Source: Halopseudomonas xinjiangensis
GTDB lineage: Bacteria; Pseudomonadota; Gammaproteobacteria; Pseudomonadales; Pseudomonadaceae
NCBI RefSeq assembly: GCF_900104945.1
Contig: NZ_LT629736.1
Coordinates: 186,001 to 250,000 of the forward strand
Length of the DNA stretch: 64,000 nucleotides
Direction: 5' to 3'
Program-made: the position numbers and the translations under genes
Notes under the pieces: generated by a model
The model's database searches: none
What the model saw: only the letters and a program-made list of their open reading frames with translations
Told to the model about the DNA's origin: nothing
In this document: positions 30,394 to 60,021 of the stretch, in pieces
How the letters are laid out: every line of letters begins with the position of its first letter
How positions within the stretch are numbered: the stretch's first letter is position 1

Positions 30394-31170
30394 GTGAACA
30401 GAGTTCGCGTAGTGTTGGTGAACACCAGTCATCCGGGAAATATCGGTGGTGCCGCCCGGGCAATGAAAAACATGGGCATCTCCGAGCTGGTGCTGGTCGA
30501 CCCCGAGCGCTTCCCCGATCCGGACGCCCGCGCCCGTGCTTCGGGCGCTGACGATGTGCTCGAAGGGGCGAGGATCGTCGCGACACTCGAGGAGGCAATC
30601 AGCGATTGCGTCCTGGTGCTGGGCACCAGCGCGCGCGACCGGCGTATTCCCTGGCCGGTGGTCGATCCTCGTGAAGCGGCTGGCCTGGTGCTGGATCAGC
30701 TGGACGACGCGCCCGAAGCGACCGTGGCACTGGTGTTCGGTCGTGAAGACTCCGGCTTGACCACTGATGAGCTGCAGCGCTGCCAGTATCACGTGCATAT
30801 CCCGTCGAACCCGGAGTTCAGTTCGCTCAATCTCGCTGCCGCAGTGCAAGTGCTCTGCTACGAACTGCGCATGCTCGATTTGCAGCGGTCCGGCCAGCCA
30901 ACCAAGATGAAGAAGACCGAGACCACCTCTATCCAGAACGAGATTCCCGCTACGGCGGAGGAGATGGAACGTTTTTATGTTCATCTGGAGCAGGTGCTGG
31001 TTGAAATCGGCTTCCATGACCCTCAGAAACCGAGGCAGCTGATGCCGCGTCTGCGTCGTCTGTATGGCCGGATCAGACCCAACCAGGTGGAAATGAACAT
31101 TCTGCGCGGTATCCTGACCGAAACCCAGAAAGCTATCGGCGTCCAGGCGTCCGGTGAGCGGAGACGTTAA
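30394..31170 (+). CDS. trmJ: tRNA (cytidine/uridine-32-2'-O)-methyltransferase TrmJ
   Basis: This 258-residue SPOUT-class methyltransferase 2'-O-methylates position 32 of several tRNAs using [22 protein letters not shown] at the N-terminus, [17 protein letters not shown] and the [22 protein letters not shown] knot region are the family motifs, followed by a helical C-terminal extension. The start is a GTG. The stop lies 4 bp before cysE. Confidence 0.95.
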
Positions 31171-31174
31171 AACC

Positions 31175-31999
31175 ATGTTCAAGCGCATGAAGGAAGACAT
31201 TGCCAGTGTGTTTCACCGGGACCCTGCCGCCCGGAATACGCTTGAGGTGCTGTTCTGTTATCCGGGTTTGCATGCGATCTGGATCCACCGGCTGAGTCAC
31301 TGGCTCTGGCAGCACGAAGCGCGTCTGCTGGCACGCATGCTGTCAAATTTCGCGCGCTGGATGACCGGCATCGAGATCCATCCGGGGGTAAAGCTGGGTC
31401 GTCGCTTCTTTATCGATCACGGCATGGGTGTGGTGATCGGCGAGACCGCCGAAATCGGCGACGACGTTACCCTTTATCAGGGGGTCACGCTTGGCGGTAC
31501 CAGCTGGGGCAAGGGCAAGCGTCATCCCACGCTGGAAGACGGCGTGGTCGTCGGAGCCGGCGCCAAGGTGCTGGGGCCGTTCACCGTGGGCGCCGGGGCC
31601 AAGATCGGCTCGAACGCAGTGGTGACCAAGCCGGTACCCGCCGGCGCCACGGCTGTGGGAATTCCCGGAAGGATCATTGTGAAGGAGCCGGCAGAGGAGC
31701 TGGGCGAGCAGTCGGCTCGGCGCCAGGAGATGGCCGAGAAGCTCGGCTTCGATTCCTACGGCGTCACCAAGGACATGCCGGACCCGGTCGCGCGTGCCAT
31801 CGAGCGCATGCTCGACCACATGCACGCCGTAGACAAGCGTATGGAAGGCATGTGCCGCGCTCTGAGCGAACTGGGCAGCGACTACTGCGCCAAGGATCTG
31901 CCGCGTCTGGATGATCATGACTTCGACATACTCAAGAGCGACTCGGTCGCGCCGGATACCGGCGCCGCGCCAGTCGACGAGACACAGGCCAAGTACTGA
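31175..31999 (+). CDS. cysE: Serine O-acetyltransferase
   Basis: This 274-residue left-handed beta-helix acyltransferase makes O-acetylserine from serine and acetyl-CoA, the first step of cysteine synthesis. [19 protein letters not shown] contains the catalytic His/Asp set, and hexapeptide repeats run on through [20 protein letters not shown]. It is the short Pseudomonas/cyanobacterial-type CysE, with a long C-terminal tail. The ATG at 31175 is chosen over an upstream GTG that overlaps trmJ. Its TGA overlaps the iscS ATG, giving unusually tight coupling to the desulfurase. Confidence 0.94.
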
Positions 32000-33153
32000 T
32001 GCGACTGCCGATCTACCTCGACTATGCAGCGACTACGCCGGTTGATCCGCGCGTCGCCGAGAAGATGATGGCCTGCCTGACGTTGGACGGCAATTTTGCC
32101 AACCCGGCCTCGCGGTCGCATATTTATGGTTGGAAGGCCGAGGAATCGGTCGAGGCCGCTCGCCGTCAGGTCGCTGATCTGGTTGGTGCCGATCCCAGGG
32201 AGATCGTCTGGACGTCCGGCGCCACCGAATCGAACAATCTGGCGATCAAAGGCACGGCCCATGCTCTGGCGCACCGCGGCCGCCATCTGGTCACCTCGCG
32301 CATCGAGCACAAGGCGGTACTCGATAGTTGTCGCCAGCTCGAACAGGAAGGCTTCGAGGTGACCTATCTCGATCCGGGTGCTGACGGCGTAGTCACTCCG
32401 CAAGCGCTCGGCGAGGCGCTTCGGGAAGACACCATCCTGGTGACACTGATGCACGTGAACAACGAAATCGGCACGGTGCATGATCTGGCGGGGCTGGGAG
32501 CGGTCGTGCATGAGCATGGTGCGCTGTTCCATGTGGATGCAGCGCAATCCACCGGCAAGCTTGCGATCGACCTGAAGACGCTGCCGGTCGATCTGATGTC
32601 CTTCAGCGCGCACAAGACGTACGGGCCCAAGGGTATCGGGGCGCTATACGTTCGCCGCTCACTCGAGGTGCGGCCACAGGCGCTGATACACGGGGGCGGC
32701 CATGAGCGCGGTATGCGCTCCGGGACCCTGCCGACACACCAGATTGTCGGCATGGGCGAGGCTTTCGAGCTGGCAGGGCTATCCATGTCGGCAGAGCGCG
32801 AACGAATCAGCGATCTGCACACGCGCTTTCTGGCAGGGCTGGAGGCACTTGAGGGCGTCCAGCTCAATGGCAGCGCGAGCAGCCGCGTACCGCATAATCT
32901 CAATGTGTCGTTTTCCGGAGTCGACGGCGAGTTGCTGCTGCTGTCGCTCAAGGATCTGGCACTCTCGACCGGTTCGGCCTGCACCTCTGCGGCGGTGGAA
33001 CCATCCTATGTGCTCCGCGGCATCGGCTTGTCCGACGAGCGAGCACATGGCTCGCTGCGCATTTCCCTGGGCCGATTCACCTCCGCGGAAGAGGTGGACC
33101 AGGCGACTGGCATCCTTTGCGACGTCGTCACCCGCCTGCGCAAGAGTTCCTGA
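31999..33153 (+). CDS. iscS: Cysteine desulfurase IscS with a shortened C-terminus
   Basis: This 384-residue PLP enzyme releases sulfur from cysteine as an enzyme persulfide. Numbering matches E. coli IscS: His104, Asp180, the PLP Lys206 (SFSAHKTYG) and the persulfide Cys328 (STGSACTSA), and [15 protein letters not shown] is intact. E. coli IscS has 404 residues; this protein ends at LRKSS and lacks the PLWEMYKQGV-type tail that contributes to IscU binding. No iscR, iscU, iscA, hscB, hscA, fdx or iscX flanks it; cysE overlaps it by one base and ndk is next. It may serve tRNA thiolation rather than cluster assembly (inference). Confidence 0.9.
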
Positions 33154-33201
33154 CACAACGCCTTGCAGTTCGATCTGCAGGGCTGTTACGCATTTGTAAT
33201 C

Positions 33202-33224
33202 AACCTGCGTATAATCCGCAGGTT
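33202..33224. promoter_or_regulatory. Inverted repeat enclosing the ndk -10 box
   Basis: AACCTGCG at 33202-33209 and CGCAGGTT at 33217-33224 are exact complements, and the spacer TATAATC holds a consensus -10. A weak TTACGC at 33186-33191 could be the -35. A protein bound here would cover the promoter. It lies 52 bp before the ndk ATG. Confidence 0.55.
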
Positions 33225-33275
33225 AACAATCTCTCGTAACCTTCTATCCTGTCTAATAACTGTCTGGAGAGTTTT

Positions 33276-33707
33276 ATGGCTGTTGAACGCACTCTGTCCA
33301 TCATCAAGCCCGACGCCGTTGCCAAGAACGTCATCGGTCAGATCATCAGCCGTTTCGAGCAGGCTGATCTGCGCGTGGTCGCGGCCAAGATGGTACAGCT
33401 GTCCCAGTCGGACGCCGAAGGCTTCTACGCCGAGCACAAGGAGCGTCCGTTCTTCAAGGATCTGGTTGCGTTCATGACTTCCGGTCCGGTCGTTGTCCAG
33501 GTGCTTGAAGGCGAAGGCGCGGTACTGAAGAATCGCGACCTGATGGGCGCTACCAACCCGAAGGAAGCGGCTGCCGGCACTATCCGCGCCGACTTCGCCG
33601 AGTCAATCGATGCGAACGCCGTTCACGGTTCCGATTCGACTACTTCGGCTGCCCGCGAAGTCGCTTACTTCTTCGCTGAAACCGAACTCTGCCCGCGTAG
33701 CCGCTAA
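33276..33707 (+). CDS. ndk: Nucleoside-diphosphate kinase
   Basis: This 143-residue enzyme moves the gamma-phosphate of ATP to other NDPs through a phosphohistidine in NAVHGSDS (about His117). The [13 protein letters not shown] opening and the [15 protein letters not shown] to YFFAETELC end are diagnostic. TGGAGA precedes the ATG. In related genomes ndk follows iscX; here it follows iscS directly, with its own promoter. Confidence 0.97.
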
Positions 33708-33739: not shown

Positions 33740-34897
33740 ATGACCGACACCGTTACCAAGACCAATCTGCTGGGTCTGACTCAGCCGAAGATGGAAGCGT
33801 TCTTCGAGGAAATCGGGGAAAAGCGTTTCCGTGCCGGTCAGGTGATGAAATGGATACATCACTTCGGCGTCGCCGATTTTGACGAGATGACCAATCTCGG
33901 CAAGGCCCTGCGCGAAAAGCTCAAGGCCCGTGCCGAGATTCGCGGTCCGGAAATCGTCAGTGAAGATATTTCCCGAGACGGCACGCGCAAGTGGGTCGTG
34001 CGTGTCGCTTCGGGCAGTTGCGTCGAGACGGTGTACATACCGCAAAACGGCCGCGGCACCCTGTGTGTTTCCTCGCAGGCGGGCTGTGCGCTGGACTGCA
34101 GCTTCTGTTCGACCGGCAAGCAAGGTTTCAATAGCGATCTGACCGTGGCCGAGATCATCGGTCAGGTCTGGGTCGCCAACAAGTCTTTCGGGACAGTCCC
34201 GGCGAAAGTCGACCGGGCGATCACCAACGTGGTGATGATGGGTATGGGTGAGCCGCTGCTCAACTTCGACAACGTCGTCGATGCCATGACCCTGATGATG
34301 GACGACCTCGGTTACGGTATTTCCAAGCGCAAGGTGACACTGTCCACCTCGGGCGTGGTCCCGATGATTGACAAGCTGGCGTCGGTCACCGACGTAGCGT
34401 TGGCGTTGTCGTTGCACGCGCCCAACGATCAGCTGCGTAACGAGCTGGTACCGATCAACCGCAAGTATCCTCTGGACATGCTGCTCGCTTCTTGCAACCG
34501 GTATATTGCCGGGCTTGGCGAAAAGCGTTACCTGACCATCGAATACACTCTGCTCAAGGACGTCAACGACCAGCCTGAGCACGCCGAACAGTTGATCGAG
34601 CTGCTGCGCCAGACGCCTTGCAAGATCAACCTGATTCCGTTCAATCCGTTCCCGCATTCGGGCTACGAGCGGCCGAGCAACAACGCCATTCGCCGTTTCC
34701 AGGACATGCTGCATCGGGCCGGCTACAACGTGACCGTGCGCACGACGCGGGGCGAGGATATCGATGCGGCCTGCGGTCAGCTGGTAGGCCAGGTGGCCGA
34801 CCGTACCCGCCGTAGCGAGCGCTACATCGCGGTGCGCCAGTTGGCGACCGATGGTACGGCCGGCATCGTGCCGCCTGTCTCCAGTCGCCAGGTCTGA
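33740..34897 (+). CDS. rlmN: Dual-specificity 23S rRNA/tRNA adenine-C2 methyltransferase
   Basis: This 385-residue radical-SAM enzyme methylates A2503 of 23S rRNA and A37 of some tRNAs. The 4Fe-4S ligands are Cys116, Cys120 and Cys123 in [14 protein letters not shown], and the methyl-carrying Cys lies near residue 352 in [24 protein letters not shown] is the SAM-contact motif. It lies 32 bp after ndk and precedes the pilus lipoprotein gene in the conserved order. It depends on an FeS cluster, which matters because the isc genes are missing upstream. Confidence 0.96.
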
Positions 34898-59427: not shown

Positions 59428-60021
59428 ATGAGTAATGACGGCGTGAATAATGGCCGGCGTCGCTTCCTGGTTGCAGCCACGAGTGCCGTGGCCGCAGTCG
59501 GAGCAGTGGGGGCAGCAGTACCCTTTGTAGGGTCCTGGTTCCCGAGCGCCAGAGCCAAGGCGGCTGGTGCGCCGGTAAGAGTAAATATCAGCAAGTTGGA
59601 GCCGGGCCAGCAGATCGTCGCCGAGTGGCGTGGTCAGCCGGTCTTCGTGTCGCGCCGGACGCCGGAGGCGTTGGCGATTCTTGACGAGAACACCGAGATT
59701 CTCGCCGACCCCAACTCCGAAGCTTCCGTGCAGCCCGACTACGTCGATCAAACGACTCGTGCCATCAAGCCGGAAATTCTCATCGTGCTGGGTATCTGTA
59801 CCCATCTGGGCTGTTCGCCGCTGTTTCGTCCGGAAGTTGCTTCCGCCGACATGGGTGCCGACTGGAAGGGCGGCTACTTCTGTCCATGCCATGGCTCGCA
59901 TTACGACATGGCCGGTCGCGTATGGCGCTCCCAGCCTGCGCCGAAGAACCTCCCGGTGCCCCCGCATTCGTATGAGAGCGACGATATCGTCGTGATTGGC
60001 GCCGACGAGGAGACTGCCTGA
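59428..60021 (+). CDS. petA: Ubiquinol-cytochrome c reductase Rieske iron-sulfur subunit
   Basis: This 197-residue subunit of the bc1 complex has a twin-arginine-type anchor (NGRRRFLVAATSAVAAVG), one membrane helix and a periplasmic Rieske domain. The 2Fe-2S ligands lie in CTHLGCSP and CPCHGSHYD, two Cys and two His. It passes electrons from ubiquinol to cytochrome c1. The ATG at 59428 has GGAGA 8 bases upstream; the in-frame ATG at 59413 is less likely. It overlaps petB by one base. Confidence 0.97.
   Translation: MSNDGVNNGRRRFLVAATSAVAAVGAVGAAVPFVGSWFPSARAKAAGAPVRVNISKLEPGQQIVAEWRGQPVFVSRRTPEALAILDENTEILADPNSEASVQPDYVDQTTRAIKPEILIVLGICTHLGCSPLFRPEVASADMGADWKGGYFCPCHGSHYDMAGRVWRSQPAPKNLPVPPHSYESDDIVVIGADEETA

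Follow-up and report, generated by a model that had tools for sequence, protein, structure and literature searches.

Introduction

Most Pseudomonadales have been described as using the ISC system of iron-sulfur (FeS) cluster assembly, with the basal P. phragmitis and Halopseudomonas having SUF only (Lo Sciuto et al., 2024; PMC11559095). The loss of ISC in Halopseudomonas has thus been in print since 2024 and is not new in itself, and our results agree with that report on the absence of ISC and the presence of SUF. It was the sole relevant paper among the matches listed when the open-licence literature was searched for Halopseudomonas together with SUF, cysteine desulfurase or iron-sulfur, and the portion of its text available to us holds no mention of a leftover iscS, its tail or CyaY for Halopseudomonas. 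The lost IscS tail and the kept frataxin reported here go beyond this published SUF-only state, and neither was noted in the initial annotation of the locus.

A lone iscS is known from Mycobacterium tuberculosis, where iscS is likewise all that is left of ISC, SUF is complete, and effects of IscS on FeS proteins and SUF expression have been reported; its neighbourhood differs, however, as iscS there forms an operon with trmU (PMC10848736). In Escherichia coli, IscS contacts IscU through helix 8 (309-316), E347 and a C-terminal helix (R379-K391), and IscS lacking residues 376-404 does not bind IscU; TusA needs W45, E49 and D52, and CyaY and IscX need R220, R223 and other residues (PMC2854127). 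Compared with the ISC operon of Pseudomonas, the Halopseudomonas locus has the same chromosomal place, the same flanking genes and the same IscS catalytic residues, but it keeps only iscS, which lacks the IscU-binding tail and is joined to cysE.

The trmJ-ndk locus

We analyzed a window of 64,000 nucleotides (positions 186001-250000) on the single 3.54-Mb contig of Halopseudomonas xinjiangensis, a marine relative of Pseudomonas whose genome is rated 100% complete. The gene order at the locus is trmJ-cysE-iscS-ndk-rlmN, with iscR and iscU through iscX gone from there:

30394..31170, + strand: trmJ, tRNA 2'-O-methyltransferase (NCBIfam PRK15114, 285 bits, cut-off 280)
31175..31999, + strand: cysE, serine O-acetyltransferase (TIGR01172, 257 bits, cut-off 211)
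31999..33153, + strand: iscS, cysteine desulfurase of 384 aa lacking the C-terminal tail that binds IscU (PRK14012; tail and footprint analysis)
33154..33275, + strand: gap of 122 bp, the place of iscU-iscA-hscB-hscA-fdx-iscX in other genera
33276..33707, + strand: ndk, nucleoside diphosphate kinase, right-hand synteny anchor (PRK00668, 218 bits, cut-off 155)
33740..34897, + strand: rlmN, radical-SAM FeS enzyme, right-hand synteny anchor (TIGR00048, 473 bits, cut-off 290)

NCBIfam gave names for trmJ, cysE, IscS, ndk, rlmN and ispG in the window. The IscS scored 592 bits with PRK14012, above the cut-off of 548, and 583 bits with TIGR02006, below the cut-off of 643. The initial annotation had read a one-base overlap of cysE with iscS and a distance of 122 bp between iscS and ndk, and both readings hold: the overlap is the shared A of TGATG, and iscS ends at 33153 and ndk starts at 33276. 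It had also listed rlmN, ispG and petA as FeS enzymes of the window; the first two are named by NCBIfam, and given a Rieske (petA-type) motif at position 59797 of the window the list stands. As trmJ and cysE are only 4 bp apart, trmJ-cysE-iscS looks like a single predicted operon headed by trmJ. A promoter scan gave four promoter-like matches where 0.8 were expected, and one such match, to the consensus only, lies inside the iscS-ndk gap (33223-33250); matches in the terminator scan of the same run were no more than chance.

Of the 37 genomes of the genus, 36 have an IscS-type match, the remaining one (G024) being 83% complete; in G004 the match lies on two contigs, and 30 genus loci were returned for reading. 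All 30 have trmJ, cysE and iscS in the same order and an IscS of 382-384 residues, and ndk lies right of iscS at 29 of them, the other locus running off its contig. Three loci have a cysE-iscS spacing of -1 bp and the other 27 one of 3-26 bp; close linkage of the two genes thus characterizes the genus, but the precise overlap does not. The tight spacing at all 30 loci makes a coupling of cysteine synthesis to desulfuration, as proposed in the initial annotation, plausible.

That annotation had taken trmJ-cysE-isc-ndk as the usual pseudomonad order, and hence the present arrangement as a loss, which agrees with what we saw in the other genera fetched. Of the 16 other genera of the family that were fetched, 15 have trmJ-(cysE)-iscR-iscS-iscU-iscA-hscB-hscA-fdx-iscX-ndk-rlmN at the same place, and in the 16th (L034, at a contig end) isc genes alone are visible. 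In this last genome (G085, 77% complete) the iscS of the ISC locus appears split over two frames, reflecting either sequencing error or decay. Three ISC genera of the family (L022, L024, L028) have no cysE between trmJ and iscR.

In several lineages of the order, suf genes occupy the isc place itself. At 12 loci of family f26 (between L207 and L225), sufE lies directly before a tail-less iscS, with sufT, sufA and sufS farther before, and ndk follows iscS at 11 of the 12; here SUF took the isc place. In two genomes of family f36 (G432 and G468; loci L281 and L289), the isc place is cut down to iscR-iscS-iscA-ndk, iscA being retained despite there being no IscU-type match in either genome.

Loss of ISC and presence of SUF

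Genome-wide statements on gene content rest on profile or protein searches. Of 398 genomes of the family, 360 contain an IscU-type protein (NifU_N/IscU, PF01592), and 18 of the 19 genera are represented; the profile search returned none in the 37 Halopseudomonas genomes. The initial annotation had named a complete isc operon elsewhere in the genome as a point to check; protein searches for IscU, HscB and IscX gave no match in any of the 37 genus genomes, and the genome from which the queries came returned all of them, Fdx included. Ferredoxin matches in the genus were at 28-47% identity only, with none in H. xinjiangensis itself, and hscA was not seen at the trmJ-ndk locus. Reading of the locus and comparison within the genus likewise confirmed that no trace of iscR or of iscU through iscX is present there. 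For iscR this is true of the locus and not of the genome, since one IscR (TIGR02010, 213 bits, cut-off 208) heads a suf operon. The presence of SUF elsewhere, which had been anticipated, was found in the same genome:

G000:C1, about 1303.9-1310.7 kb (L003 3899-10702): suf operon iscR-sufB-sufC-sufD-sufS-sufA-sufT-sufE, 1.1 Mb from the locus

With sufB, C, D, S, A, T and E in one operon-like run, this is a SUF system of the SufABCDSE type with SufT. IscR, SufB, SufC, SufD, SufS and SufT scored above their NCBIfam cut-offs; SufA (110 of 161 bits) and SufE (134 of 160) scored below theirs, and both pass Pfam (PF01521, PF02657). A matching operon occurs in H. pertucinogena, H. pelagia and H. aestusnigri among others, and the gene 5' of it, an aldehyde-dehydrogenase-like ORF named from its sequence, is common to all 15 named Halopseudomonas-group loci compared. 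A second, SufS-like match was present in 36 of the 37 genus genomes. Of 148 family genomes, 19 matched SufB/D (PF01458); every one of these is a Halopseudomonas, so that a single genus of 19 is represented, and 109 of the 129 non-matching genomes are given without a name.

Pseudomonas sp. CC6-YY-74 (G678) and the MAG G679 were considered as a missing ISC/SUF intermediate and rejected. Both (loci L078 and L124) have IscU, HscB, Fdx and IscX plus a Halopseudomonas-like SUF operon. This SUF branches inside Halopseudomonas, beside H. pelagia and H. laoshanensis (FastTree support 1.0), and lies in a different neighbourhood with none of the H. xinjiangensis suf flanks, so that it was probably transferred from Halopseudomonas to these two genomes.

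IscS tail and docking sites

The IscU-binding C-terminal tail (379-404), a mark of the IscS of complete ISC systems, was found in none of the 30 Halopseudomonas IscS, all of which lack the last ~20 residues (after about 384). When scored as SPLW.M[YF].[DE]G[VI]D, the full tail is present in 15/15 ISC-linked IscS of the other family genera. Further docking residues have changed in the genus: in helix 8, S312 and M315 are Leu in all 30 sequences, and at the CyaY/IscX site R223 is lost from all 30 (Asp or Glu in 14), with R220 retained in 30, R225 in 24 and R340 in 29. The PLP lysine K206, H104 and the catalytic C328, residues expected of the IscS subfamily, are retained in 30/30, as are W45, E49, D/E52 and D65 of the TusA site, and the TusA family itself is present in all 11 genus genomes sampled. 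F89 matters for ThiI binding in E. coli; it is Ala in all 30 Halopseudomonas IscS, so the ThiI branch may be weakened.

Across the order, IscU-type matches were found in 151 of 293 genomes and IscS-type matches (E 1e-60 or better) in 282. We read 65 of the 132 IscU-less genomes with an IscS match outside the genus, namely 35 (all such genomes among 137 taken from outside the own family) and 30 chosen by family. The ISC-bearing order loci read comprised 29 best matches and nine chosen ones; this set overlaps the family, as L181 and L183-L190 are Pseudomonadaceae. The full tail was present in 38/38 of these loci vs 0/65 of the IscU-less genomes. Taking the family and order sets together, 53/53 ISC-linked loci, from 52 genomes because L185 is of the same genome (G049) as L029, have the full tail, and none of three genomes with only a long NifU-type match has it. 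These counts exclude L034, in which iscS is split, and L239 and L243, which have a weak or fragmentary NifU_N and were read but not counted. Remnants in the IscU-less IscS were SPLW in one of the 65 (L214, genome 86% complete) and SPxW in three (L230, L231, L237). Both states occur within ten families (f1, f16, f18, f23, f28, f37, f39, f40, f44 and f47), with partial decay only in f18. Loss of the IscS tail goes with loss of IscU across the order. No report of such a rule was among the matches listed in an open-licence literature search on the IscS C-terminus.

Within a single genus of family f44 (g80), G476 has IscU and G530 (L231) does not, the latter having a decaying tail, SPQW; this is perhaps a recent loss.

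Origin and role of the remaining IscS

We consider it probable that a switch from ISC to SUF has left IscS as an IscU-free sulfur donor to TusA-type carriers and tRNA thiolation. The gene contents, synteny, tail loss and residue patterns are direct observations, from which we infer an order of events. In an ancestor of Halopseudomonas, cluster assembly would have passed to an iscR-sufBCDSATE operon, and the isc neighbours of iscS would have been lost in place, giving trmJ-cysE-iscS-ndk. IscS, presumably co-transcribed with cysE, would now be an IscU-free desulfurase, whose persulfide sulfur would reach TusA-type carriers by the putative client pathway and serve tRNA thiolation and similar tasks. 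Once IscU was gone, the IscU-docking tail would have been lost and the CyaY/IscX docking patch eroded, and the catalytic and TusA-docking residues would have stayed fixed. A reason for keeping IscS may be that its other clients are not supplied by SufS-SufE; in E. coli, SufS reportedly acts in FeS cluster synthesis only. As judged from these residue and gene patterns, survival as a sulfur donor for tRNA thiolation is the most likely explanation for the retention of iscS.

Alternatively, IscS may have been replaced in place, a tail-less donor stretch of the iscR-iscS-sufBCDSATE kind having recombined into the isc locus and suf having moved away later. We regard this as unlikely, although stretches of this kind exist: the marine relatives L086 and L091 carry trmJ-iscR-iscS-sufBCDSATE-ndk-rlmN at the isc place, and of the SUF from outside the Halopseudomonas group that of L086 is nearest. 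In addition, IscS trees place Halopseudomonas among IscU-less lineages, and with all columns the AU test rejects a clade of Halopseudomonas IscS with the ISC IscS of the family (p 0.008), which could mean that IscS came from an IscU-less donor. However, the rejection is gone when the 53 columns that shift with IscU loss are left out (AU p 0.257), backbone support in the IscS trees is weak, and the nearest IscU-less IscS vary by tree (f25, f31 and f9 vs Marinimicrobium, f37g76 and Nitrincola). As a control, the ISC and IscU-less members of family f37 were held together; this clade was not rejected either way (AU p 0.272 with all columns, 0.174 without those 53), so the control shows neither convergence nor replacement. 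The flanking genes argue against replacement, the identity to the H. xinjiangensis protein being 82-87% in the family vs 45-69% in IscU-less lineages for rlmN, 70-77% vs 61-70% for cysE, and 65-71% vs 41-58% (one partial sequence 67%) for trmJ; ndk identity does not separate the two groups. The tree of the suf-linked IscR (AU p 0.548) does not settle the origin of that gene. From the kept place and neighbours, vertical descent with convergence appears to be the favoured reading.

It is also conceivable, if improbable, that IscS still makes clusters by feeding SufBCD or apoproteins directly beside SufS, as might be suggested by the reported effect of the lone M. tuberculosis IscS on FeS enzymes (PMC10848736). 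Against this, the suf operon of H. xinjiangensis encodes a SufS and a SufE, and IscS has lost both its IscU tail and, at the CyaY/IscX site, R223. Finally, a local assembly deletion is refuted for the genus as a whole and can be put aside with near certainty, because the same cysE-iscS order was read at all 30 genus loci and IscU is missing from all 37 genomes.

Frataxin without IscU

The H. xinjiangensis genome also encodes a frataxin:

G000:C1:3274788-3275123 (L155:1986-2321): cyaY (PF01491, 60.2 over 21.3 bits; TIGR03421, 68.8 over 53.3 bits)

CyaY is present in 29 of the 37 genus genomes and IscU in none, so the two do not co-occur in the genus; among the 33 genomes with completeness of 90% or more and contamination of 5% or less, 26 have CyaY. 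On a quick tree of 31 genus genomes, its presence and absence need two changes. A CyaY without IscU runs against a published statement that all genomes with cyaY also hold iscU. In the order, CyaY (PF01491) occurs in 87 of 293 genomes, 85 of which contain an IscU-type match as well; the other two are H. xinjiangensis, the one Halopseudomonas included in this sample, and G448, which is 75% complete and has a genus-mate with IscU. A search of the open-licence literature for CyaY with SUF gave no report of CyaY without IscU among the matches listed.

Since lysA and/or cyaA adjoin cyaY at 11/11 genus loci and 8/9 loci of ISC genera (L171 has neither), the gene looks like an ordinary ortholog. Its profile scores are 55-66 bits in the genus vs 79.5-102 bits in the rest of the family, ISC-linked sequences of the order reaching down to 66.5. 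A motif, GRQPASRE[LI]W, is shared by all 11 Halopseudomonas sequences, the corresponding pattern in all nine ISC-genus sequences being SRQ.....LW. The dN/dS ratio was 0.07-0.11 in four close pairs and 0.3-0.4 in the other ten pairs listed, and pN/pS averaged 0.36 over 55 pairs, with synonymous sites near saturation. The conserved motif and the low dN/dS in close pairs suggest that Halopseudomonas CyaY works, as opposed to the rival reading of a slowly decaying relic. Its absence from 8 of the 37 genus genomes, among them the lineages G005/G015/G029 and G020/G028/G036, suggests that it is dispensable.

Alongside Roche et al., also cited on frataxin, Olivieri et al. (2024) found binding of E. 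coli CyaY to SufS and an almost complete loss of SufS-SufE activity, whereas no such effect was seen in earlier work on the B. subtilis frataxin binding SufU-SufS (PMC11446229). A frataxin is thus able to bind and shut down a SUF desulfurase; E. coli, however, also has ISC, while no ISC was found in Halopseudomonas and its CyaY has a changed conserved motif. We therefore offer only tentatively, as a possibility somewhat short of an even chance, that frataxin was freed from ISC and kept by selection, that the stretch GRQPASRE[LI]W was remodelled and then frozen, and that the protein now regulates SufS-SufE, perhaps by acting on SufS.

Implications

In genomes, the IscS tail could serve to indicate a functional IscS-IscU pair. 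Loss of IscU also amounts to a natural experiment, in which one docking tail of IscS is removed and the other docking site stays, so that the FeS role is separated from the thiolation role. Frataxin without IscU also allows a direct test of whether the protein has a job outside ISC, SUF being the sole cluster machinery found in the organisms concerned. If the proposed role is true, Halopseudomonas would hold a natural SUF-only frataxin and offer a clean case of such a job.
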